64,000 nt of DNA from NCBI RefSeq assembly GCF_003987435.1, contig NZ_PIQG01000001.1:372001-436000 (forward strand). The letters are read 5' to 3'. The notes below the pieces were generated by a model. That model made no database searches, had not been told where the DNA came from, and was given only the letters and a program-made list of their open reading frames with translations. Source of the stretch: Pseudidiomarina taiwanensis. GTDB taxonomy: Bacteria > Pseudomonadota > Gammaproteobacteria > Enterobacterales > Alteromonadaceae. Made by a program: the position numbers and the translations under genes. Positions 26,252-37,577 of the stretch are shown here, in pieces (position 1 is the first letter of the stretch; the number at the start of each line of letters is the position of its first letter).

Positions 26252-27370
26252 TTAAGGCTGAGTGACGTACTTGATAAAATCGCCATAACCTCGCGCTTCC
26301 ATTTCGCTCAAAGGAATAAACTCCATTGCAGCTGAGTTGATGCAATAGCGTAAACCAGTGGGTGCAGGTCCATCGGTAAAGACATGACCTAAATGGGAGT
26401 CGGCGATTTTACTGCGAACTTCAGTGCGGGTCATAAACCAGCTCCGATCGGTATGTTCGGTTACCATTTCAGCTTGAATGGGTTGGGTAAACGCGGGCCA
26501 ACCTGAACCGGAATCGTACTTATCTGCAGATGAGAATAGCGGCTCGCCACTGACCACATCAACATAAATACCAGGGCGCTTTTCATCGTTATATTCATTA
26601 CTGAACGCGCGCTCGGTTTTATTCTTTTGCGTGACCGCATATTGCAATGGGGTTAGACGCTCCTGTAATTCTTCATCGGTGGGTTTGCGAAAAGATTGCC
26701 ACGCAGCAGTTGGTGTAGGCTCAGTCTCCATAACAGTGTCCTTAAAGCGAGTATAGTCGACTTCGTAATCATCGCCCCAAACCGCCTCGGTGAATTGAAA
26801 ACGGCCAGAGTTATAAGTGTAGATCTGATAGCGCACAGGATTCTTTTTATAGTAATCCTGATGGTACTCTTCGGCCGGCCAAAAGCGCTGAGCAGGCTCG
26901 ATAGGAATGACTACAGGCTCTGAATAGCGACGCGCTTGCTTGAGCGTTGCTACAGCTTGTTCGGCAAGACGTTTTTGTTCGCTATTGTGATAGAAAATCC
27001 CGGGCCGGTATTGTTTGCCACGGTCAACGAATTGGCCGTCAATGTCGGTCGGGTCCATCATCCGCCAAAGCGCTTGTAATAGCCCGGTGTAACTAACGAT
27101 AGACGGGTCATAATAGACTTCAACCGCTTCTGTGTGGCCGGTGAGACCACGCGCAACTTGTTCGTAGCGCGGATTCGCCTCACTGCCACCGGTATAGCCT
27201 GATATTACTTCGCTCACCCCTGGGACTTCTTCGAATGCTTTTTCGACGCACCAGAAGCAGCCTCCGGCAAAGGTGGCTCGACTTAAGCCATCGGTATCGC
27301 GCGCCTGCGCTGGCAAGACGGCTCCAGCTAAGAAGTAGACGAGGATAAAGCCGATGGCGATTTTTTTCAT
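26252..27370 (-). CDS. msrAB: Exported bifunctional methionine sulfoxide reductase MsrA-MsrB
   Basis: A 372-residue protein: signal peptide (residues 1-23), an MsrA domain with the GGCFWC active site, and a C-terminal MsrB domain with GSGWPAF and catalytic cysteine in RYCINS. It should repair both sulfoxide epimers of oxidised methionine in the periplasm. The zinc CxxC pairs of many MsrB proteins are replaced ([10 protein letters not shown]). There are only three cysteines in the whole chain, two in GCFWC and one in RYC: the usual resolving cysteines of both domains (in the NCGR and CGWP positions of relatives) read serine. Its start overlaps the DUF1499 stop by four bases. Confidence 0.94.
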
Positions 27371-28113
27371 GACTTTAAGGCCTCATCAAGTGACACAATA
27401 AAGGCGCGGATGCGTTGCGCGTTGACACCGACATCGCTCATTCCTACCCGTGATTTGCTGCGAACATCGACGCGAGTCATGCCATCTTCGGTGATAGCGC
27501 GCAGCACCACATCATCCTTAAAACCAAACCAAAAGGTGGTATCGGTGGCTTCAAAGCGGCCGGCAGCAGGAACACTGGCAACGATTTCCCAGCCCATTGC
27601 TGTTGCCACTTGCTCGGCCGCAGCGACAATCTCAGTAACGCTTGCTGACGTCTCGTAAGTGGTGATGTCAGGGTAGTGTTGTAATTGCAAAGCCGCAGTC
27701 TCAGCACCCGCGTATTCAACCGGGTTCGGCGCATCTGCACGAAGCGGAGCAACCGCAACAAATTCTGGCGGGTTTTCCGTATCTGTGCTGATGTCGTGGA
27801 TCCGTGGAATATTCGGACTAGTTGCTGTTGCGTATTGCTGATAGGGCAAGATAAAGGTGATCGCCCCCAGTACAATGGCCAATACAGGTGCACCTTTACC
27901 TAAATTGGCCTGGCGCCCAAGGGTGACGGAGTACAATAAAATAAGCAGACCAATAATTGCGATGATTCCGCCACCAATCGCAGCATAGCGTAACACCGTA
28001 AAGGCTTCACGTAAGCCAAGGGTTTGCGCTTGATAAAGCGGGCCGGCAAGAGCGAGAGCGAGAATGGCAATTACTGCCAACAAAGCAAGCAGAGATGAGA
28101 GTTTTTTAATCAT
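27367..28113 (-). CDS. DUF1499 membrane protein
   Basis: A 248-residue protein with three hydrophobic segments in the first 110 residues, then a DUF1499 domain marked by the [12 protein letters not shown] segment and a C-terminal [22 protein letters not shown]. The function of DUF1499 is unknown. It is translationally coupled to msrAB (ATGA overlap), so a link to envelope oxidative damage is possible. It is divergent from the TonB-dependent receptor across 149 bases. Confidence 0.85.
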
Positions 28114-28262: not shown

Positions 28263-30608
28263 ATGTTGTTAAGCGCCTATATCACGGCCGCAGCACTTGC
28301 TGCTGCGCAAGAGCCCGTCACGCCAGAACAAACAGAGCAAAACGAAATTGAGATTATCGAAGTGCGCGGTGAGCGCAATGCAGCGCTTACCCTGCCGAAT
28401 GAGACCCCGGTCGATAGCGGTTTTGGTGATGCAAGCTCGATGTTTGACAGTAATCGGGCGGTGACCGCAATTTCGAAAGCGTTGCGCGAGGCACTGGCGA
28501 TCGATGACATGCACGATGTACAAAAAGTGGCGCCCAATACCTATGCTGCGGCGGGTTTTGGTGCACCAAGTTTACCGACTATTCGAGGTCAACTAGGCGA
28601 ACTCTTTCAGCTCGGGATGCGCCGCCAAGGTGGCAATAATGGACTGGGGATTCCAATGTCGTTTAATGGCGTGGATGAAATTGCCGTGGTTCGTGGAATG
28701 GCTCCAGTCATGTACGGTTCGACTCAGCGTACCGGGGGCTACTTACAACTGCAACCGAAGCGGGCCAATTTGAGCCAGCAGCAAGGCGAAGTAAATTTGA
28801 GCGTCGGCAGCTGGCAGCAATACCAAGGGCAATTTGACTACAATAGTGTGCTGAATGCCGATAGCTCAGCACTTCGCATCAGCGCTGAAGTTGTTCGCGA
28901 AGATAGCTTCTATGATTTCACCGAATATGAAAGTGATAGCCTTTATCTTGCTTATGCACATCAATTTAATCCTGACGTCCGCTTAGATTTACATGCTGAG
29001 TTTTATCAAGTTGACTGGACCGATAATGCTGGAATTAACCGACCGACCCAGGCGCTCATCGATGACGGTTTGTACGTAACAGGCCAGGGCCGCCAAGCAA
29101 ATGGTTCGAACGTGCCAGGGGCCTTTAGTCTGGTTACACCAGAAGCGCTTGTAGATATTCCTCGTTCACGTGTTTATACCGATCCTGAAGATATCAACAA
29201 CGCTCAGACCTATCTTATCTACGGGTTACTTGATTGGCGCATCGCGACCGATCTCGACTTTAGTCAGCGTTTCTATTTACAGCATCTGCAGCGCGAAGAG
29301 ATAGCGCAGAACTCGTTTGTTGAAATCGTTGATGGTGCGACCACCTTTGAGACCCGCTCAGAATTTCGCAAGGCTTGGCAAGATGGTGGGGTAACTTGGT
29401 TTGGCGCAAACTTGCGTTACAACGATGTACTCGGCTTTAGCCAATTTACCACGGAAGCCGATTTACCGGTTGATTTGCTGGGTCCTATTGAAAATCGTCG
29501 GATTCCACTGACTGCAGCGCAGCAAGCTCGATTAATTGAGTTGCGTCCAGGTGTGTTTGTCTCGCCCGGCACGCAATATGATTTAAACCAAGATGGCGCA
29601 GGTGACTTCAATTTATCCGATACCACTGATTCCACCAGTTACCAGTGGGGGCTGTTTGCGCAACATAACTATCCAATCTCCGAGCAGTGGCAAGTCGAGT
29701 TGGGCCTGCGCGCTGATTACTACGATGTGACCGCCGCTGATCCCTTTGCCCAACAACTCACTGGCAACCAGGTCGAGGATAGCTATTCAGACTGGCTTTG
29801 GGGTAAACACCTGAGCCTTCGCTATGAACCAAGTGCAGGGCAGGCACTTTACGTGACCTGGCAGCAGAGTGACTCAACCTCAAATAGTCTTGCTGGTGGC
29901 ACTGTGCTTGGCGCGGATCAACAGATCAATCCGCTTAACTTTGCGACCGAGAACGAAAATATCGAACTTGGCTATAAATGGCAGCCGCTTGATAGCAATT
30001 GGTACCTCGACCTTGTTGCCTACAACCAAAAGCGAAGCCTGCGGAATCGAGATGGATCAAATTCAGGCATTAAAGCCCGAGGCTTTGAGAGTCAATGGTT
30101 TTATCAGGCCGAGCAGGCTTGGCTGAGTCTCAGCTATAGCTATCTTGATGCCCGTTTTGATGACTCAGCGGCGTTTCAAGATTCGCGCTCGGTTTATGAT
30201 GCCTTTACCACAGACCGGCCTGATCTTGTCGCGGGGACGGGAGTAGGCGCGCCAAATTTTGCTAGCTTCCCAGCAGCGGATGTGCGCGTACAGGGGTTAC
30301 CGGACCACACTGCGGCGTTAGCAACGGGTTATCGTCTAAACGATGCTTGGCAAGTGGGCGCCGATCTGACCTTTAACAGTGATTACAAACTGGATTATCT
30401 CGACCTTGTTCGGATACGTGATCAGTTTACTCTGAATATCAATGCGATTTGGCAACTCAGCGAACAGTCGCGGGTCCGCTTTGATGTGTTTAACGTCACC
30501 GATGAAGAAAATTGGTCGCCGGTATTTGAAGGGGGCTACTTTGGCTCGACTTTGGTGTTCCCGGAACTCCCGCGCCATGTTGAAGTCAGTTATCGTTATT
30601 CGTTTTAA
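28263..30608 (+). CDS. TonB-dependent outer-membrane receptor
   Basis: A 781-residue receptor. A short signal peptide ends near residue 15 (AALAAAQ), followed by a TonB-box-like IEIIEVRG, a plug domain with a TIRG and VVRGMAPVMYGSTQRTGG pattern, and a long beta-barrel ending in aromatic YRYSF, as required for barrel insertion. Ligand unknown: it is distant from the siderophore and B12 receptors I can recall. The next gene starts 17 bases downstream and the four after it overlap one another, so it probably feeds the ABC importer encoded there. ATG at 28263 is preceded by AGGAGAAG. Confidence 0.9.
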   Translation: MLLSAYITAAALAAAQEPVTPEQTEQNEIEIIEVRGERNAALTLPNETPVDSGFGDASSMFDSNRAVTAISKALREALAIDDMHDVQKVAPNTYAAAGFGAPSLPTIRGQLGELFQLGMRRQGGNNGLGIPMSFNGVDEIAVVRGMAPVMYGSTQRTGGYLQLQPKRANLSQQQGEVNLSVGSWQQYQGQFDYNSVLNADSSALRISAEVVREDSFYDFTEYESDSLYLAYAHQFNPDVRLDLHAEFYQVDWTDNAGINRPTQALIDDGLYVTGQGRQANGSNVPGAFSLVTPEALVDIPRSRVYTDPEDINNAQTYLIYGLLDWRIATDLDFSQRFYLQHLQREEIAQNSFVEIVDGATTFETRSEFRKAWQDGGVTWFGANLRYNDVLGFSQFTTEADLPVDLLGPIENRRIPLTAAQQARLIELRPGVFVSPGTQYDLNQDGAGDFNLSDTTDSTSYQWGLFAQHNYPISEQWQVELGLRADYYDVTAADPFAQQLTGNQVEDSYSDWLWGKHLSLRYEPSAGQALYVTWQQSDSTSNSLAGGTVLGADQQINPLNFATENENIELGYKWQPLDSNWYLDLVAYNQKRSLRNRDGSNSGIKARGFESQWFYQAEQAWLSLSYSYLDARFDDSAAFQDSRSVYDAFTTDRPDLVAGTGVGAPNFASFPAADVRVQGLPDHTAALATGYRLNDAWQVGADLTFNSDYKLDYLDLVRIRDQFTLNINAIWQLSEQSRVRFDVFNVTDEENWSPVFEGGYFGSTLVFPELPRHVEVSYRYSF

Positions 30609-30624
30609 CTAGAGACACGAGAAG

Positions 30625-32787
30625 ATGCTCAAGAAAGTTTCGATTATTGCAGTTATCGTGCTGATTCTAGCGGCCTTTTATCAATTTGATTTGGGTCAGT
30701 ATTTAACCTTGGCAGAACTTAAGGCACAGCGTGAAGTACTAAACGATTTCTATCAAAGTCATACCCTAGCGGTATTTGCGCTGTACTTTATTGGCTATGT
30801 CATCGCGACTGCAGTATCGATCCCAGGGGCGATTATTCTCACCCTTGGTGCTGGGGCTATCTTCGGTTTTGTGAATGGCCTCATCCTGGCTTCATTTGCC
30901 TCAAGCATAGGTGCCAGTTTGGCGTTTTTAAGTGCACGCTTTGTGCTTCGAGATAACTTAGAGCGCCGTTTTGAGCAGCGTTTGAAAACGCTCAATGCCG
31001 GTGTGCAAAAAGATGGCGCTTGGTATTTATTCACCTTACGCTTGGTACCGATTTTTCCGTTTTTCTTGATTAACCTCTTGATGGGGTTAACTCGGATGCC
31101 ATTGCGGACCTATTATTGGGTCAGTCAAATTGGCATGCTTGCCGGCACTGCGGTCTACGTCAATGCTGGCACACAGCTTGCTCAATTAGAGAGTATCAGT
31201 GGTATCGTGTCACCCGGTTTACTCGCGAGTTTCGCGCTCTTGGGCATTTTTCCACTCGTCGCGAAATGGTTCGTTAGCGTAATGAAACGCAAGCAGGTGT
31301 ATCGCGGTTGGACGCGTCCCCGGCAATATGATGACAATGTGATCGTGATTGGCGCTGGGGCTGGTGGCTTGGTCAGTGCCTATATTGCCGCGGCGGTAAA
31401 AGCTAAAGTTACCTTAATCGAAGCCAGCGAAATGGGTGGCGATTGTCTCAATACCGGCTGTGTCCCATCAAAAGCCTTGTTACATGCTGCGCACGGCGCG
31501 CACAGTATCAAGCGACTGCAAGCCGTGGGGATTAATTCAGGCTCGGTTCAGGTCGATTTTAAGCGGGTGATGGCCAAAGTGAAGGCAACCATCGCACGGA
31601 TTGAACCGAATGATTCGGTTGAGCGCTATCAAGGCCTAGGGGTGAATGTCATTCAAGGTTATGCCAAGCTCGTCTCTCCGTGGCAGGTTGAGGTGTATGA
31701 CCAGAGTGGTGAACTCATCACCACCCGTAGCGCTCGTTCGATTATTGTCGCAACGGGTGCGAGTCCGCTAATTCCGCCTATTCCGGGCTTGCAGGACACC
31801 CCATTTTTAACCTCTGAGACGATTTGGTCTTTGCAACACCAGCCTGAGACCCTTGCGATTTTGGGGGCAGGACCGATTGGCTGTGAATTTGCCCAAGCTT
31901 TTACGCGGCTCGGTAGCAAAGTCGTGCTGTTTGACCAAGCCGAGCAGATCTTGGGTAAAGAAGATGCTGATATGGCGCAATTGGTGCAGCAGCAACTTGA
32001 GCAAGATGGGGTTGAGATTCAACTCGGTGCCCGAGTAATCCGCACTGAAGTGACCCCCACTGAAGATGGCGGCGAGAGCATTACGATCGAGGTTGAGCAT
32101 GCTGATGGCAGCACGGCTTTGCATCAAGTCGACTCGGTTTTGGTCGCAGTGGGGCGGAAGCCACGAACGAGTGGGTTTGGTTTGGAAGAGCTAGGGGTAC
32201 AAATCGATTCAACGATTTCGACAGATGCGTTTTTACGCACCAATTACCCCAATATTTTTGCGGTTGGTGATGTGGCTGGCCCGTATCAATTTACCCACAC
32301 TGCCAGTCATCAGGCTTGGTATGCAGCGGTTAATGCGCTATTTGGTTTTGCCAAGAAATTTAAAGCCGATTATCGAGTGATCCCATGGGCAACCTTTACT
32401 GCCCCTGAGATTGCGACTGTCGGCTTGACTGAGAAAGAAGCGCAAGCGCAAGGGATTGCCTATGAGGTCACTGAGCACGATATGAGCGAAGTTGACCGCG
32501 CCATTACGGATGATATCGCCTACGGCAAAGTAAAAGTGCTGACGGTCCCAGGCAAGGATAAGATCCTCGGGGCGACCATAGTCGGTGCGCACGCTTCGGC
32601 GTTAATTAGCGAGTTTGTAACCGCGATGAAATTCAACCACGGTCTCAATGATATTTTAGGGACGATTCATTTGTACCCAAGCTTGCCCGAGGCGAACAAA
32701 TACGTGGCAGGAAATTGGAAACGGGCGCATGCCCCGCAAGCCGCGTTAAAGTGGCTCGAGCGCTTGCATCGTTGGAGACGTAAGTGA
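30625..32787 (+). CDS. Fusion of TVP38/DedA-like membrane domain with FAD pyridine nucleotide-disulfide oxidoreductase
   Basis: A 720-residue two-domain protein. Residues 1-220 form a TVP38/TMEM64 (SNARE-associated) membrane domain with several helices and the motif TLRLVPIFPFFLINLLMG. Residues 236-720 are a flavoprotein disulfide reductase: FAD-binding GAGAGG (243-248), redox pair Cys274-LNTG-Cys279, NAD(P)-binding GAGPIGCEFA, and a C-terminal HLYPSLPEA in place of the lipoamide-dehydrogenase HxxPTxxE site. It lacks the C-terminal Cys-Cys and N-terminal metal-binding domain of mercuric reductase. Similar fusions exist in gammaproteobacteria with no firm function. It is co-transcribed with the receptor before it and ynjB after it. 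Confidence 0.93.
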   Translation: MLKKVSIIAVIVLILAAFYQFDLGQYLTLAELKAQREVLNDFYQSHTLAVFALYFIGYVIATAVSIPGAIILTLGAGAIFGFVNGLILASFASSIGASLAFLSARFVLRDNLERRFEQRLKTLNAGVQKDGAWYLFTLRLVPIFPFFLINLLMGLTRMPLRTYYWVSQIGMLAGTAVYVNAGTQLAQLESISGIVSPGLLASFALLGIFPLVAKWFVSVMKRKQVYRGWTRPRQYDDNVIVIGAGAGGLVSAYIAAAVKAKVTLIEASEMGGDCLNTGCVPSKALLHAAHGAHSIKRLQAVGINSGSVQVDFKRVMAKVKATIARIEPNDSVERYQGLGVNVIQGYAKLVSPWQVEVYDQSGELITTRSARSIIVATGASPLIPPIPGLQDTPFLTSETIWSLQHQPETLAILGAGPIGCEFAQAFTRLGSKVVLFDQAEQILGKEDADMAQLVQQQLEQDGVEIQLGARVIRTEVTPTEDGGESITIEVEHADGSTALHQVDSVLVAVGRKPRTSGFGLEELGVQIDSTISTDAFLRTNYPNIFAVGDVAGPYQFTHTASHQAWYAAVNALFGFAKKFKADYRVIPWATFTAPEIATVGLTEKEAQAQGIAYEVTEHDMSEVDRAITDDIAYGKVKVLTVPGKDKILGATIVGAHASALISEFVTAMKFNHGLNDILGTIHLYPSLPEANKYVAGNWKRAHAPQAALKWLERLHRWRRK

Positions 32788-33929
32788 TGCGGCAATGGTT
32801 GCTGGCACTTAGCCTGCTGCTGAGCGGCTGGTTTTGCTCGATTGCTTACGCAGCACAAGATTGGCAAGCAACCCTTGCGGAGGCGCGCGGGCAGACGGTG
32901 TATTTTCATGCTTGGGGCGGTCAACAAGAAGTTAATGATTATCTGCAATGGGTCGCAGCTGAATTGGCGCGGCAATATGATATTCGCTTAGTACATGTCA
33001 AAGTTGCGGATATTGCCGAGTCGGCGCAACGTTTGGTTAATGAAAACCAAGCCGAGCCGTCGGCAGTGGACCTACTATGGATTAACGGTGAGAATTTTCA
33101 CTTTCTAAAACGCCAGCAGCAATTGCTTGCAGAGCTTGATAAGAAAGTTCCCAATCGTTCGTTACTGGCTCCCGCAGATGAATGGCAGCGAGATTTTGGC
33201 GTCGCAACTGATGGCTACGAATTACCATGGGGCGTAGGCCAGTTTCAATTGTTAGTCAGAGAACAGGTGCTGAACGAAGTCAATGTCACTACAGCTGAGC
33301 TTAGTCCGCAGCAATTACTGCGTTATGCAAAAAAGCACCCCGGTCGCATCAGTTATCCAAAGCCGCCCGAATTTCACGGCTCAACCTGGCTGAAAAATTT
33401 AATCTGGTCATTGAGCGCAGGTGACCCGCGTTTATTGGAGGCGCCAACAAACGCAGCTGAGCAAGCGTTATTGCCCCTGCTATGGGGCTACCTTGATGAG
33501 CTGCACCCCTTGCTTTGGCGGGCGGGTGAGGAGTTTCCGGCAAGCCAAGCGCAAACCTTAAATATGCTGGCGAATCAACAGCTGGATATGGCGCTTAGCT
33601 TCAGTCCGCAGCAGCTTTCGCAACTGCAGCAGCAAGGCTTGATGCCCCGTGGAATTACGCGGGCCTATTTAGCAGGCGGTGCCATTACCAATCATCATTA
33701 CCTCGCGATCAGTCGGCGCACTGCGGTGCCTGCGGCCGCCTTGGTCAGTTTAAATTTCCTGCTTAGCCCCGAGGCACAGCAGGCCAAGCGAGATTCTGCT
33801 TGGGCCGATTTATCTGTGTTGCAGCAGGCGCGCACAGGCGCCAATACAGAACTGTTTCCAACTGCGCCAGAATTGCACGTGGATTGGGTCGAACGATTGG
33901 AGCAAACGTGGCTCGCTCGTTACCAATAA
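32787..33929 (+). CDS. ynjB: ABC transporter substrate-binding protein, YnjB family
   Basis: A 380-residue periplasmic binding protein with a signal peptide ending near AYA (residue 22), followed by the YnjB-type N-terminus (VYFHAWGGQQEVNDYLQWVA). Family 1-like extracellular fold; the E. coli homologue YnjB has no proven substrate. The ATG overlaps the stop of the fusion gene by one base (TGATG), with GGAG nine bases upstream; a GTG one codon earlier is possible. Its 3' end overlaps the permease gene by 22 bases. Confidence 0.9.
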   Translation: MRQWLLALSLLLSGWFCSIAYAAQDWQATLAEARGQTVYFHAWGGQQEVNDYLQWVAAELARQYDIRLVHVKVADIAESAQRLVNENQAEPSAVDLLWINGENFHFLKRQQQLLAELDKKVPNRSLLAPADEWQRDFGVATDGYELPWGVGQFQLLVREQVLNEVNVTTAELSPQQLLRYAKKHPGRISYPKPPEFHGSTWLKNLIWSLSAGDPRLLEAPTNAAEQALLPLLWGYLDELHPLLWRAGEEFPASQAQTLNMLANQQLDMALSFSPQQLSQLQQQGLMPRGITRAYLAGGAITNHHYLAISRRTAVPAAALVSLNFLLSPEAQQAKRDSAWADLSVLQQARTGANTELFPTAPELHVDWVERLEQTWLARYQ

Positions 33930-35512
33930 TTGTCGCAACCAGCTGGGTAGGGTTCTGCTTAGTGCTCCCCGTGCTTGGCGTACTGTTGCTCATTGGTGAT
34001 GGATTGTGGCGGGTTTTGGGTCGTGGTGCGGAGCTCTTAAGCTCATTTTTTGAGGTGCCGGGCTTGTTGAGTATGGTCGGGCAGAGTCTCGGAACGGCAC
34101 TGATATCTGTGTTCATTAGTTTCGTACTGGTGCTATTGACCTTGCCGCATACTTTGCAGCGCTCACAATCGTGGTTTGCACGGGTGTTAATCGGGATGCC
34201 ACACTTAGTTGTCGCGATTGGCTTAGTTTGGTTGCTGGCACCGACCGGTTGGTTATGGCGCGTATTTGGCGCTACTGAGCCATCTATCACCTTATTCGAG
34301 CAGCAAAGCTTGATAAGCCTGTGGTTGGTCTTGGTGCTCAAAGAATTTCCGTTTTTGTGGCTAGTTGCGGGGATCGCGTTAAAGCGCCTCCCGGTCGCCA
34401 ATTGGTTTGTGCAAGGTCGCGCGCTTGGGCGCACCGACGCCCAGATATGGTGGTTAGTGGTGGTACCGGCGGTGGTGCGACAGCTTCGCTTGGCCCTGAT
34501 TATCGTGGCCGTGTATTCAGCCAGTGTCGTTGATGTGGCTTTATTACTTGGGCCGCAAAGCCCACCGCTATTCGCCGTGCAAGTGTATCAATGGTTTATG
34601 GATTTCGGTCCACAGCGGGCTGACTATGCGCGCTGGGGGAGTATTTTACTGTTGGCTTTGAGCTTACTGCTCGTTGGCATCGTCGTGTTGCATGAGCGCG
34701 TTTTTCTTTGGTTAACAGCAAGAGGGCTGAGCCGGAGCAGGGTATTGGGGCTTCCACCGGCTTGGCTACCCCAAGTGATGCTGACGGTGCTGCTGTGCTT
34801 GTTAGTGCTGATAGTATTCCAGTTACTGATTTTAACCGGCGCGCGCGGTTGGTTTTTCCCGCAGCTGTGGCCTGCCAGTTGGGAGCTCCAGCAAGTATTA
34901 CAAACGGTACAGAATCTTGCTCCGACTATTTTAAGTTCATTCCTGCTCGCCGCAGTGGTCAGCGTTCTCGCAACCGTTACTGTGGTCCTGTTAACTGAAT
35001 TACAACGGCATTATCAAAAACAGGTTTCGTTAACTCTGGTGTTGCTCCCTTTATTACTGCCGCAGATCATTTTGCTGTTAGGCTGGCAAAGCGCTTATTT
35101 TCTCTTCAGTAATACCCCTCATTGGGCTTGGATTGTGCTGTGCCATCTGCCATTTTCGATTGCTTACACTTTTATCGTGTATGCGCCGATTGAAGCACTA
35201 TATCCGCAGCGCACTCTGGTGGTAGCACAGAGTTTAGGTCACAGCTATTGGCAGGCGTGGTGGCGATTAAAAGCGCGCAGCTTAGCGCGGGTCATTGGTT
35301 TTAGCTTTGGTTTTGCTGCGGTAATCGCGCTGGCCCAGTATTTGCCAGTACAGATGACGGCGGCAGGGCGAGTGCAAACGCTCACCACTGAGTTTGTAAG
35401 TTTGGCAAGTGGCGGAATACGGCCTGAAGTTGTGACGATTGGACTGGTGTTAACTTTGGTGTCGTTTATTGCTTTATCATTGCAAACGGTAAAGGGGGAT
35501 ACGCAGTCATGA
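33908..35512 (+). CDS. ynjC: ABC transporter permease, YnjC family
   Basis: A 534-residue inner-membrane permease made of two fused halves with about twelve helices in all; each half has the binding-protein-dependent loop (GRALGRTDAQIWWLVVVP in the first and AQSLGHSYWQAWWRLKA in the second). Two permease halves in one chain is the thiamine/iron (ThiP/SfuB-like) design. GTG at 33908 has GGAG five bases upstream; a longer frame from 33800 has no support. It pairs with YnjB and YnjD. Confidence 0.9.
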   Translation: MARSLPIIVATSWVGFCLVLPVLGVLLLIGDGLWRVLGRGAELLSSFFEVPGLLSMVGQSLGTALISVFISFVLVLLTLPHTLQRSQSWFARVLIGMPHLVVAIGLVWLLAPTGWLWRVFGATEPSITLFEQQSLISLWLVLVLKEFPFLWLVAGIALKRLPVANWFVQGRALGRTDAQIWWLVVVPAVVRQLRLALIIVAVYSASVVDVALLLGPQSPPLFAVQVYQWFMDFGPQRADYARWGSILLLALSLLLVGIVVLHERVFLWLTARGLSRSRVLGLPPAWLPQVMLTVLLCLLVLIVFQLLILTGARGWFFPQLWPASWELQQVLQTVQNLAPTILSSFLLAAVVSVLATVTVVLLTELQRHYQKQVSLTLVLLPLLLPQIILLLGWQSAYFLFSNTPHWAWIVLCHLPFSIAYTFIVYAPIEALYPQRTLVVAQSLGHSYWQAWWRLKARSLARVIGFSFGFAAVIALAQYLPVQMTAAGRVQTLTTEFVSLASGGIRPEVVTIGLVLTLVSFIALSLQTVKGDTQS

Positions 35513-36159
35513 TCACCAAATTTGCTTGGCAACAATTGGCGATTCAGCTGGGGATGCGTGAGTATCGGCTACCGCCAATCGAACTAACGGGCTCAGATTG
35601 CTTGGTGCTCATGGGGGGCAGTGGGGCAGGTAAATCGTCGCTACTGCATTGGTTGCTTGGTGATAAACAAACGCACGTTAGTTGTCGCGATGAGGTTTAT
35701 TTGAACGGTGAACCGATTAATGACAAAAGCATTCAAGCGCGCCGAATCGGTCTGCTGATGCAAGATGTGCTGTTGTTTGAGCACCTCTCGGTACTCGATA
35801 ATTTGCGTTTTGCACTGCCGCATCGCTGGCGTCGTAAAAAGCCAGCAGAACAGCAGGCCTATCTACTTGAGCGCCTCAGTCAAATTGAAATGGCTGAGTT
35901 CGCTAATGCTGCACCTGCGCAACTAAGCGGTGGGCAAGCAGCGCGGATTGGCTTATTGCGCGCATTAATTGCTGAGCCACTTCTGATGTTGCTAGATGAG
36001 CCCTTTGCAGCGCTTGATCCGCGCCTGCGCAGCAAAATTCGAGATTGGACTTTTGCCCAGTTACAGCAAGCTGAGGTTCCCTGTATTATGGTGACGCACG
36101 ATCTCGGTGATATTCCAGCCACTGCCAAGCAACTGAATCTTGAGGATTACCATGTTTGA
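35509..36159 (+). CDS. ynjD: ABC transporter ATP-binding protein, YnjD family
   Basis: A 216-residue ATPase. Walker A MGGSGAGKSS, Q-loop LLMQDVLLFEHLSV, signature LSGGQAARIG, Walker B LLMLLDEPF and the switch histidine in VTHD are all present, so it should be active. The start overlaps the ynjC stop by four bases (ATGA) and its end overlaps ynjF by eight. It powers the YnjBC importer. Confidence 0.94.
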   Translation: MITKFAWQQLAIQLGMREYRLPPIELTGSDCLVLMGGSGAGKSSLLHWLLGDKQTHVSCRDEVYLNGEPINDKSIQARRIGLLMQDVLLFEHLSVLDNLRFALPHRWRRKKPAEQQAYLLERLSQIEMAEFANAAPAQLSGGQAARIGLLRALIAEPLLMLLDEPFAALDPRLRSKIRDWTFAQLQQAEVPCIMVTHDLGDIPATAKQLNLEDYHV

Positions 36160-36766
36160 CTCCCAGCTTCATCGAAGCGTCCAAAAACCGCTGCAGAGCC
36201 TCGCAAAAGCATGCTTAAAACTCGGTTTAAGCGCCAATCAAGTGACGTTACTTGGTTTTGCCGTTGGGCTAGCTGCTGCGGTTGCAATTAGCCAACAAGC
36301 CTATTGGCTCGGCTTACTCGGTATTCTTTTGAATCGGATTGCCGATGGGCTTGATGGTGCGATGGCGCGCTTGAGTGAGGTCAGCGATGCGGGAGGTTAT
36401 CTTGATATCAGCCTCGATTTTATCTTTTATTCGGCCATCCCATTTGCATTTTTGCTGGCCGATCCCGATGCCAATAGTATCGCTGCAGGGCTTTTGATGG
36501 TGACTTTTATGGGGACCGCCGCTACCTTTTTAGGGTTTGCTATTCAAGCCGAAAAGCACGGTATCGATAATCCTAAATTCCCGAATAAATCATTGCATTA
36601 TATGGGTGGGATCACCGAAGGAGGTGAGACCATCGTGGCCTTTAGCTTGATGTGTATCCTGCCGGCACACTTTGCGCTGATTGCGTTTGTTTTTGCTGGG
36701 CTGTGTTGGCTAACGGCTTTGAGCCGTTTATGGGCAGGCTATCAAACGCTTAAAGATCGGATTTAG
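36152..36766 (+). CDS. ynjF: CDP-alcohol phosphatidyltransferase, YnjF-like
   Basis: A 204-residue membrane enzyme with about five helices. The full catalytic motif of the family, DG-x2-DG-x-AR-x8-G-x3-D-x3-D, is seen in DGLDGAMARLSEVSDAGGYLDISLD. Such enzymes move a CMP-linked phosphatidyl or alcohol group in phospholipid synthesis. E. coli ynjF is in the same cluster as ynjBCD, with unknown product. ATG at 36152 has TGAGGA upstream. It overlaps ynjD by eight bases and the convergent hydroxylase by 17. Confidence 0.9.
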   Translation: MFDSQLHRSVQKPLQSLAKACLKLGLSANQVTLLGFAVGLAAAVAISQQAYWLGLLGILLNRIADGLDGAMARLSEVSDAGGYLDISLDFIFYSAIPFAFLLADPDANSIAAGLLMVTFMGTAATFLGFAIQAEKHGIDNPKFPNKSLHYMGGITEGGETIVAFSLMCILPAHFALIAFVFAGLCWLTALSRLWAGYQTLKDRI

Positions 36767-37577
36767 GCTTGGTAAACGGAATCTTCAAGAGCTGCCAAAG
36801 GGGGGTTGAGCTCGCTTCACTTGGATATTCATCAAGTCCGATTTCTAGCCCATCCGGGCCTTTTTCTGCACGCGCGGTATAACTGCCGAACAAACGATCC
36901 CAAATAGATAGGTTAAAGCCGAAGTTACTATCGGTTTCAACTTGCGCCCGCGAGTGGTGAATACGATGCATATCTTGGGTCACGATAAGCTTACGAACCC
37001 ATGGTTCGATGCGGCGCGGCAGCGCGACATTGCCGTGATTGAACATAGATGAGGCATTCAGAATCACTTCAAAAATAATCACTGCCAGTGGACTTATGCC
37101 AAGCGCCAGTACAGCGATTATCTTGATGAGCATTGAAATAATGATCTCAAGTGGGTGAAAACGCAGGCCGGTACTGACATCAAAGTCGATATCCGCATGA
37201 TGAACACGGTGCAGACGCCAAAGCAGGGGGATACGGTGAAAAAGTCGATGTTGCCAATAAATGATAGCGTCAAGGCAGATAACCGCGATAACGATGGCTA
37301 ACCCAGGCAAGGCTTGGTTTAGTTGGAAACTATTGAATAGCCCGAATTGATGTTGCTGAGCATAAGCCGCAGCGCCAACGGCACCCGCAGGGATAAGCAG
37401 TCGCAACACTAAGGTGTTAACCACAACCAAACCAAAGTTGGCACGCCAACGTCGCCATTTTGAAATTTTAGCCTGACGCTTCGGGGCGAGCTGCTCCCAA
37501 CTGAGCATCAGCAGCAACATCAGCCCGAAGGCACCGAGTCGCAACCAAACTTCATAAGCAAAAGGCTCAGTTGGCAT
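36750..37577 (-). CDS. Fatty acid hydroxylase / sterol desaturase family membrane protein
   Basis: A 275-residue integral membrane di-iron oxidase. The histidine boxes HRLFH, HRVHH and HRIHH bind the di-iron site, and about four hydrophobic helices surround them. Family members hydroxylate or desaturate fatty acids, sterols or carotenoids; the substrate here is unknown. It is the last gene of metG-rlmI-hinT-hydroxylase on the minus strand (12 bases after hinT) and overlaps ynjF tail to tail. Confidence 0.88.
   Translation of the reverse strand: MPTEPFAYEVWLRLGAFGLMLLLMLSWEQLAPKRQAKISKWRRWRANFGLVVVNTLVLRLLIPAGAVGAAAYAQQHQFGLFNSFQLNQALPGLAIVIAVICLDAIIYWQHRLFHRIPLLWRLHRVHHADIDFDVSTGLRFHPLEIIISMLIKIIAVLALGISPLAVIIFEVILNASSMFNHGNVALPRRIEPWVRKLIVTQDMHRIHHSRAQVETDSNFGFNLSIWDRLFGSYTARAEKGPDGLEIGLDEYPSEASSTPLWQLLKIPFTKPKSDL

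Follow-up and report, generated by a model that had tools for sequence, protein, structure and literature searches.

Alternation of ArsS and YnjBCD beside a membrane flavoenzyme, and a recurrent receptor-fusion-YnjBCDF operon in Pseudidiomarina taiwanensis

A 64,000-nucleotide stretch of the genome of Pseudidiomarina taiwanensis (contig NZ_PIQG01000001.1, positions 372,001 to 436,000), called the window below, contains a predicted operon of six genes. These encode a TonB-dependent receptor, a single chain that joins a VTT membrane domain to a flavoenzyme (the fusion), homologues of the Escherichia coli YnjB, YnjC and YnjD proteins of an ATP-binding cassette (ABC) importer, and a homologue of YnjF, a cytidine diphosphate (CDP)-alcohol phosphatidyltransferase. 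A link was found between the fusion and ArsS, the arsenosugar radical S-adenosylmethionine enzyme, and ArsS and YnjB were never found together in a sampled genome that has the fusion. At a probability of about one in three, the operon is read here as an uptake-and-membrane-processing cassette, an import branch that would feed the membrane step which ArsS feeds by synthesis. The fusion architecture and ynjBCD were already known; the link of the fusion to ArsS is new here. Neither the receptor-fusion-YnjBCDF operon nor an exchange of ArsS for YnjBCD was found in the literature searched, outside of which most subscription papers lay.

The fusion loci compared were the best-scoring 80 of at least 588 matches, in named genomes. 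Among these 80, an ArsS homologue was present at 16 loci, an ArsM-like gene at 9, and relatives of the TIGR04282 and TIGR04283 examples at 12 and 15, respectively. At least one arsenosugar family was seen at 25 of the loci and YnjB at 7, with no locus having both. Each neighbour family was assigned by matches (BLAST or cluster) to a single example, the examples alone being scanned with family models, and genes were called as open-frame picks, by which short or overlapping ones can be missed. The ArsS example scored 471 bits against TIGR04167 (cut-off 300), and the ArsM-like example, which fell below the NCBIfam arsenic-methyltransferase cut-offs, is named by similarity. Gene content was compared in 303 Gammaproteobacteria, the membership of this set being presumed; YnjB was taken from a larger sample (14 of 369 above the cut-off), of which G031, G597, G645 and G656 lie outside the 303. 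The set contains 147 genomes with ArsS, 96 with the fusion or its flavoenzyme and 10 with YnjB. ArsS was present in 75 of the 96 fusion genomes (odds ratio 6.7, p 1e-12). The fusion accompanied YnjB in 8 of the 10 YnjB genomes (p 0.002), ArsS did so in 1 of the 10 (p 0.02), and all three occurred together in none of the 303. The chance that all 8 YnjB genomes would fall among the 21 of the 96 fusion genomes without ArsS is 1.5e-6, not corrected for descent. The 96 include 14 flavoenzyme-only matches, among them one genome with YnjB (G341); without these, 82 genomes remain, 63 with ArsS, 7 with YnjB and none with both, and the chance that the 7 would all be among the 19 without ArsS is 1.3e-5, again not corrected for descent. 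By family, ArsS was absent in 5 of 6 YnjB families compared with 6 of 56 others (p 4e-4, likewise uncorrected), and in the sixth YnjB family one genus has the fusion with ArsS and another the fusion with YnjB. Of 97 fusion matches, 14 were on the same contig as ArsS, and 13 of these lay no more than 10 kb away from it. This link lay beyond what the preliminary description of the window, made from its sequence, could see, and left that picture incomplete. In a chosen group of 59 genomes, ArsS was not found in 58, the window's included, the exception being G379; the TIGR04167 control gave a match in Synechococcus elongatus alone. A match to the TIGR04283 glycosyltransferase was present in 1 of 20 genomes searched (G656) and absent from that of the window.

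A quick tree of 124 fusions (LG+G4, SH-aLRT support only, with two long branches that meet) showed that the contexts are clustered by lineage yet have switched several times. The YnjB label requires at least 12 changes, 10 of them forced by strong branches, against a shuffled mean of 36.8; when YnjB is set against the arsenosugar context alone, at least 6 changes are needed against a shuffled mean of 18.7. Loci labelled as having neither context include those cut by contig ends. In the window's clade, an outer branch is a locus with ArsS, both glycosyltransferases and a hydroxylase (L199, support 99). A group adjoining the main Alteromonadales clade has a locus with ArsS, an ArsM-like gene, DUF547, a hydroxylase and both glycosyltransferases (L143, support 93). 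The DUF547 or hydroxylase genes are thus common to both contexts, whereas ArsS and the importer differ; a DoxX-like gene is also present in one arsenosugar locus. In locus L079 the fusion shares one stretch with YnjBCD and with representatives of the two arsenosugar glycosyltransferase families, and ArsS was not found in the genome of this locus. In five Sphingomonadales loci (L154, L176, L178, L182 and L198) the fusion is followed by a NupC-like nucleoside transporter, with YnjF next after it in four of the five.

The importer side was surveyed in 80 regions around YnjB matches, a part of all matches (87 loci, L032 to L118, less the seven short ones L072 to L078); six had no YnjB above 80 bits, leaving 74. 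The NF008633 model of YnjB, which gave matches in three of 14 control genomes, E. coli included, and exceeded its cut-off in one, did so in 105 of 295 genomes of the window's order. Among the 74 loci, YnjF was found at 47, the fusion at 30, the receptor at 15 and a VTT protein without flavoenzyme at 6. Twelve loci of the order (L032 to L039, L041, L048, L055 and L056) have the receptor, fusion, YnjB, YnjC, YnjD and YnjF in the same order on one strand. In 11 of these (all but L048) a DUF547 gene stands between the fusion and YnjB, and in 10 (all but L033 and L041) a fatty-acid-hydroxylase gene follows YnjF. The hydroxylase is on the same strand after ynjF in, for example, L032, L034 to L039, L043, L048 and L055 to L058, and on the opposite strand in the window and in 6 of 7 ynjB-bearing loci of its genus. 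DUF547 had no match in the window's genome and was therefore rejected as a constant part. The eight-gene form is also carried on two large plasmids (Catenovulum and Pseudoalteromonas), and L103, from another family, has a different order: hydroxylase, DoxX-like gene, fusion, DUF547, receptor and YnjBCDF. Within the genus the fusion was present in 16 of 26 genomes, the window's included; of the other 15 loci, seven have the fusion and YnjBCDF with the receptor (L207 partial) and eight have the receptor and fusion alone. A DoxX-like gene is near six of those eight, and in L210 an AhpD-like gene is beside the receptor. Such recurrence across genomes makes chance linkage very unlikely. The six families that the preliminary description had grouped from one genome, and which might rarely have been neighbours elsewhere, do recur together as a unit with its own receptor; the set as described was incomplete, DUF547 and fatty-acid-hydroxylase genes being part of the unit in most relatives. 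Departures from the common form were also seen. In L050 (G001), where YnjC, YnjD and YnjF are intact, the adjacent YnjB is split into two frames. In L089 and L090 (G379) the YnjC-like permease is two genes, with downstream ThuA-like proteins recognised by eye alone. L069 (G010) has a fusion-YnjBCDF locus with an adjacent YnjE-like rhodanese and the most divergent fusion on the tree.

In the window all six open reading frames are intact, and their positions, the 16-base gap between receptor and fusion (30609 to 30624) and the overlaps of 1 to 22 bases agree with the preliminary description (Table 1). The overlaps are 1 or 4 bases (fusion and YnjB), 22 (YnjB and YnjC), 4 (YnjC and YnjD) and 8 (YnjD and YnjF); YnjB starts at an ATG at 32787 or possibly at a GTG at 32784, and the predicted start of YnjC is GTG. 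Judged from this spacing, the six genes are likely to be co-transcribed. Promoter and terminator scans were close to chance (12 against 10.6 and 15 against 15.1). No recognisable operator was shared upstream of the receptor, where the top gapped word pair occurred in 5 of 26 related sequences against 2 to 3 in letter shuffles. An Rfam scan of the window gave one tRNA and no riboswitch, which weakens thiamine or cobalamin uptake as a function. A defence system was rejected, the PADLOC matches being either weak or, for YnjD, of an ATPase type. The genome is 2.2 Mb in size and 99.9% complete. Divergent from the receptor, a bifunctional MsrAB gene and a DUF1499 gene (26252 to 28113) form an arrangement also present at five other Pseudidiomarina loci; DUF1499 homologues were found at 4 of 80 YnjB-search loci, 6 of 16 loci of the series L203 to L218 and 7 of 80 fusion loci.

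Table 1. The predicted operon, spanning 28263-36766, and adjoining genes (positions within the 64-kb window)
Feature	Coordinates	Strand	Evidence or remark
TonB-dependent receptor, apparently dedicated subfamily	28263..30608	+	PF00593 70 bits
VTT (TVP38/DedA COG0398-type) + MerA/Lpd-like flavoenzyme fusion	30625..32787	+	PF09335 and PF07992/PF02852 in one chain
YnjB periplasmic substrate-binding protein	32787..33929	+	NF008633 389.5 bits (cut-off 203)
YnjC-like ABC permease	33908..35512	+	E. coli YnjC match; between ynjB and ynjD in relatives
YnjD ABC ATPase	35509..36159	+	ABC_tran 82 bits
YnjF CDP-alcohol phosphatidyltransferase	36152..36766	+	PF01066 30.9 bits
Fatty-acid-hydroxylase/sterol-desaturase-family gene	36750..37577	-	PF04116 111 bits; convergent with ynjF
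DUF1499 gene	27367..28113	-	PF07386 82 bits; divergent from receptor; recurrent neighbour, membership uncertain

The receptor has the barrel (PF00593) and, by profile alignment to siderophore-receptor plugs, the plug of a TonB-dependent receptor. A profile of 20 relatives matched siderophore receptors, plug region included (best E value 6.5e-20); the best NCBIfam siderophore-receptor match of the window receptor itself reached 49 bits against a cut-off of 317. Its structure model contains an N-terminal helix, a plug and barrel strands, at a mean predicted local distance difference test score (pLDDT) of only 71.6 and with 170 residues below 50. The subfamily was present in 13 of 275 genomes of the order (E value 1e-150), the best 3 of 8 to 51 first-look candidates being scored in each of the 13; 12 of these receptors, the window's included, are in the operon and one is beside a contig end. 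The receptor thus looks dedicated to the operon.

The fusion matches PF09335, the VTT domain by which DedA/TVP38 proteins (COG0398) are defined, at 87.9 bits (cut-off 33.9), and PF07992 and PF02852 at 208 and 95 bits. The CxxxxC redox pair of class I disulfide reductases is invariant in all 13 fusions aligned. Where E. coli Lpd has a His, the window fusion has Tyr684, and Tyr also stands there in 12 of 12 other aligned fusions; this His, before a Pro near the C-terminus, we take to be the catalytic residue of class I disulfide reductases such as Lpd and glutathione reductase. The C-terminal Cys-Cys pair of MerA was present in the MerA compared and in none of the 13 fusions, and the window fusion fell below the TIGR02053 cut-off (364 against 454 bits). 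As it lacks these defining residues, a plain mercuric reductase and a plain disulfide reductase were both rejected as readings. The gene had previously been called a membrane-tethered disulfide oxidoreductase; the CxxxxC is present, but with Tyr for the catalytic His, as in MerA, and no Cys-Cys pair, that name is unwarranted without an assay. Public records name the architecture 'bifunctional TVP38/TMEM64 family protein/FAD-dependent oxidoreductase'. In the consulted part of one paper (PMC10127716) VTT-flavoenzyme proteins are the commonest COG0398 DedA fusions, and DedA proteins might be phospholipid scramblases. In two genomes of about 1.5 Mb (G402 and G518) the fusion genes have in-frame stops and ArsS is kept. 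A TIGR03169-like flavoprotein (15 of 80 loci) and DUF3047 (10 of 80) recur beside the fusion, for example in L131, L140 and L180.

YnjB, above the NF008633 cut-off, is directly followed by YnjC and YnjD homologues, as expected of a YnjBCD importer. Identity to the E. coli proteins is 38.5% for YnjB, 35% over 101 amino acids for YnjC (E value 1e-10), 42.6% over 190 amino acids for YnjD (E value 6e-46) and 48% for YnjF; YnjC gave no match to a Pfam or NCBIfam model. Structure prediction of YnjB, suggested at the outset as a check, returned a substrate-binding-protein fold (pLDDT 93.3) to which many ligand classes match equally. The YnjF translation contains DG-x2-AR-x7-G-x3-D-x3-D, which we take to be the Asp motif of CDP-alcohol phosphatidyltransferases, and exceeds the PF01066 cut-off of 22 bits.

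A receptor, a YnjB-type binding protein and an ABC importer in series are the usual route for such parts. In the proposed cassette, a small molecule would cross the outer membrane by way of the receptor, be bound by YnjB and be imported by YnjCD. At the inner membrane it might then be reduced, attached to lipid, or both, through the VTT-flavoenzyme and YnjF together with the hydroxylase encoded nearby; YnjF would couple an alcohol with CDP-diacylglycerol, and the VTT domain could move the lipid. Bacteria with ArsS would supply the fusion by synthesis, and the window's group by import. The direction in which transport runs, the sequence of the reactions, the attachment to lipid and the substrate are all inferred. 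A compound of riboside or nucleoside type is perhaps the substrate, and it could be an organoarsenical resembling an arsenosugar. ArsS adenosylates arsenic, according to the portion of the source seen (PMC12159101), and a transporter that replaces it could therefore import a riboside or nucleoside; the NupC-like loci also point to such a compound. As far as proof goes, the earlier statement that no substrate can be named still holds. It seems a long shot that YnjBCDF, the E. coli cluster included, is an import branch by which marine bacteria without ArsS would salvage algal or cyanobacterial arsenosugar-type ribosides via the receptor, YnjF re-attaching them to lipid after reduction by the VTT-flavoenzyme.

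Several observations weigh against the import-branch reading. Both labels are clustered on the tree and ArsS was missing from all 56 genomes examined of the window's order, so part of the exclusion is due to lineage. At 48 of the best 80 fusion loci neither context was present in the stretch surveyed, 13 of the 96 fusion genomes had neither ArsS nor YnjB, 2 of the 10 YnjB genomes had no fusion, and no fusion was in view at 44 of the 74 YnjB loci. G379 has both ArsS and YnjB in one genome with no fusion match at 1e-150; it carries two DUF547-receptor-YnjB loci and a separate VTT-ArsS-TIGR04283-TIGR04282 locus. In the genus, loci L209 to L213 and L215 to L217 have the receptor and fusion without ynjBCDF. 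The NupC-like loci are of one lineage, and the one example scanned (L176) reached 272 bits against a cut-off of 442. The YnjB fold resembles binders of sugars, sugar phosphates, polyamines, iron and metal-citrate alike, singling out no ligand. No arsenic-specific family was found among ten window proteins scanned, other arsenic genes not being sought. In E. coli the importer locus has separate VTT proteins and no flavoenzyme, and the available text of one study (PMC3688515) reports activation of ydjXYZ-ynjABCD by FNR, which the reading does not predict.

Other explanations account for some of these facts. It is possible, if on balance doubtful, that the operon is an ordinary TonB and ABC importer for a polyamine, thiamine-like cation, sugar phosphate or glycerophosphodiester, whose imported alcohol is used by the lipid and flavoenzyme genes, the fusion being a general membrane redox helper and hence linked to ArsS. 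The YnjB profile weakly matches polyamine, 2-aminoethylphosphonate, agropine and iron binders (E values 9e-5 to 3e-3), proteins that bind sugars, sugar phosphates, glycerophosphocholine and sulfoquinovosyl-glycerol are among its neighbours in fold, and CDP-alcohol phosphatidyltransferases like YnjF could join any alcohol to CDP-diacylglycerol. This account leaves unexplained, however, why sampled fusion genomes have ArsS or YnjB, never both, and why the two contexts have flanking genes in common but not ArsS or the importer; the lack of a riboswitch is a weak point against thiamine or B12. Uptake of a metallophore or metal-citrate, with the receptor bringing the chelate, YnjBCD importing it and the MerA-like flavoenzyme reducing the metal, would fit the matches of the receptor profile to ferripyoverdine, pyochelin and pseudopaline receptors, the resemblance of YnjB to iron- and metal-citrate-binding proteins and the Tyr at the MerA position. 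Such uptake is nevertheless unlikely: the receptor is at 15 of 74 YnjB loci rather than most, the lipid transferase would have no evident role, the fusion is without the MerA Cys-Cys pair, and, although no search was aimed at one, no metal regulator was apparent next to the loci.

Distinctly improbable is sulfur or selenium redox, in which an imported thio or seleno compound would be handled by the flavoenzyme and, in E. coli, by the YnjE sulfurtransferase. The E. coli operon has YnjE, the AhpD-like YnjA and a 4Fe-4S protein; in L069 the fusion and YnjBCDF have a YnjE-like rhodanese next to them; an MsrAB gene is divergently placed in the window; and the TIGR03169-like flavoprotein at 15 of 80 fusion loci resembles a family that occurs N-terminally of SelD (279.5 bits for the example, against a cut-off of 310). 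A YnjE-type rhodanese was, however, at none of the best 80 of at least 588 fusion loci, and no SelD or selenoprotein gene was among the window proteins scanned. A chance or selfish neighbourhood without shared function would accommodate the eight genus loci with receptor and fusion alone, yet the recurrence in different gene orders and distant families (L103, L089 and L090) and the operon-specific receptor subfamily make it the least credible account by far.

The import-branch reading can be set beside known systems. The E. coli ydjXYZ-ynjABCDE and ynjF neighbourhood shares YnjB, YnjC, YnjD and YnjF homologues and VTT proteins with the window. Unlike the window's operon, it lacks a receptor and a flavoenzyme, includes YdjY, YnjA, YnjE and a pair of separate VTT proteins, and has ynjF on the opposite strand. 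The literature searched gave neither a substrate nor a product for ynjBCD or ynjF, the parts seen of the E. coli papers giving regulation only. The COG0398 DedA-oxidoreductase fusions have the same architecture, and the part seen of PMC10127716 gives them no function and no link to ArsS or YnjBCD. MerA shares the CxxxxC and the Tyr for the catalytic His; the fusion, in contrast, has no C-terminal Cys-Cys, is joined to a membrane domain and is below the TIGR02053 cut-off. Arsenosugar loci (ArsS of TIGR04167, ArsM-like, TIGR04282 and TIGR04283) have the fusion, DUF547 and fatty-acid-hydroxylase genes in common with the YnjB context, whereas the window's genome is without ArsS and TIGR04283 matches and its operon has the importer and receptor instead.

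Overall, the same membrane flavoenzyme is accompanied now by ArsS, now by YnjBCD, and this alternation gives the unexplained E. coli cluster a testable role. If the reading is true, an orphan enteric transporter would be linked to organoarsenical cycling. A 2025 review (PMC12608789), in the portion seen and with regard to cell uptake in a human context, describes the mechanisms of arsenosugar and arsenolipid uptake as 'largely unknown'. The same reading, if true, would suggest a route by which marine bacteria take up algal arsenosugars.

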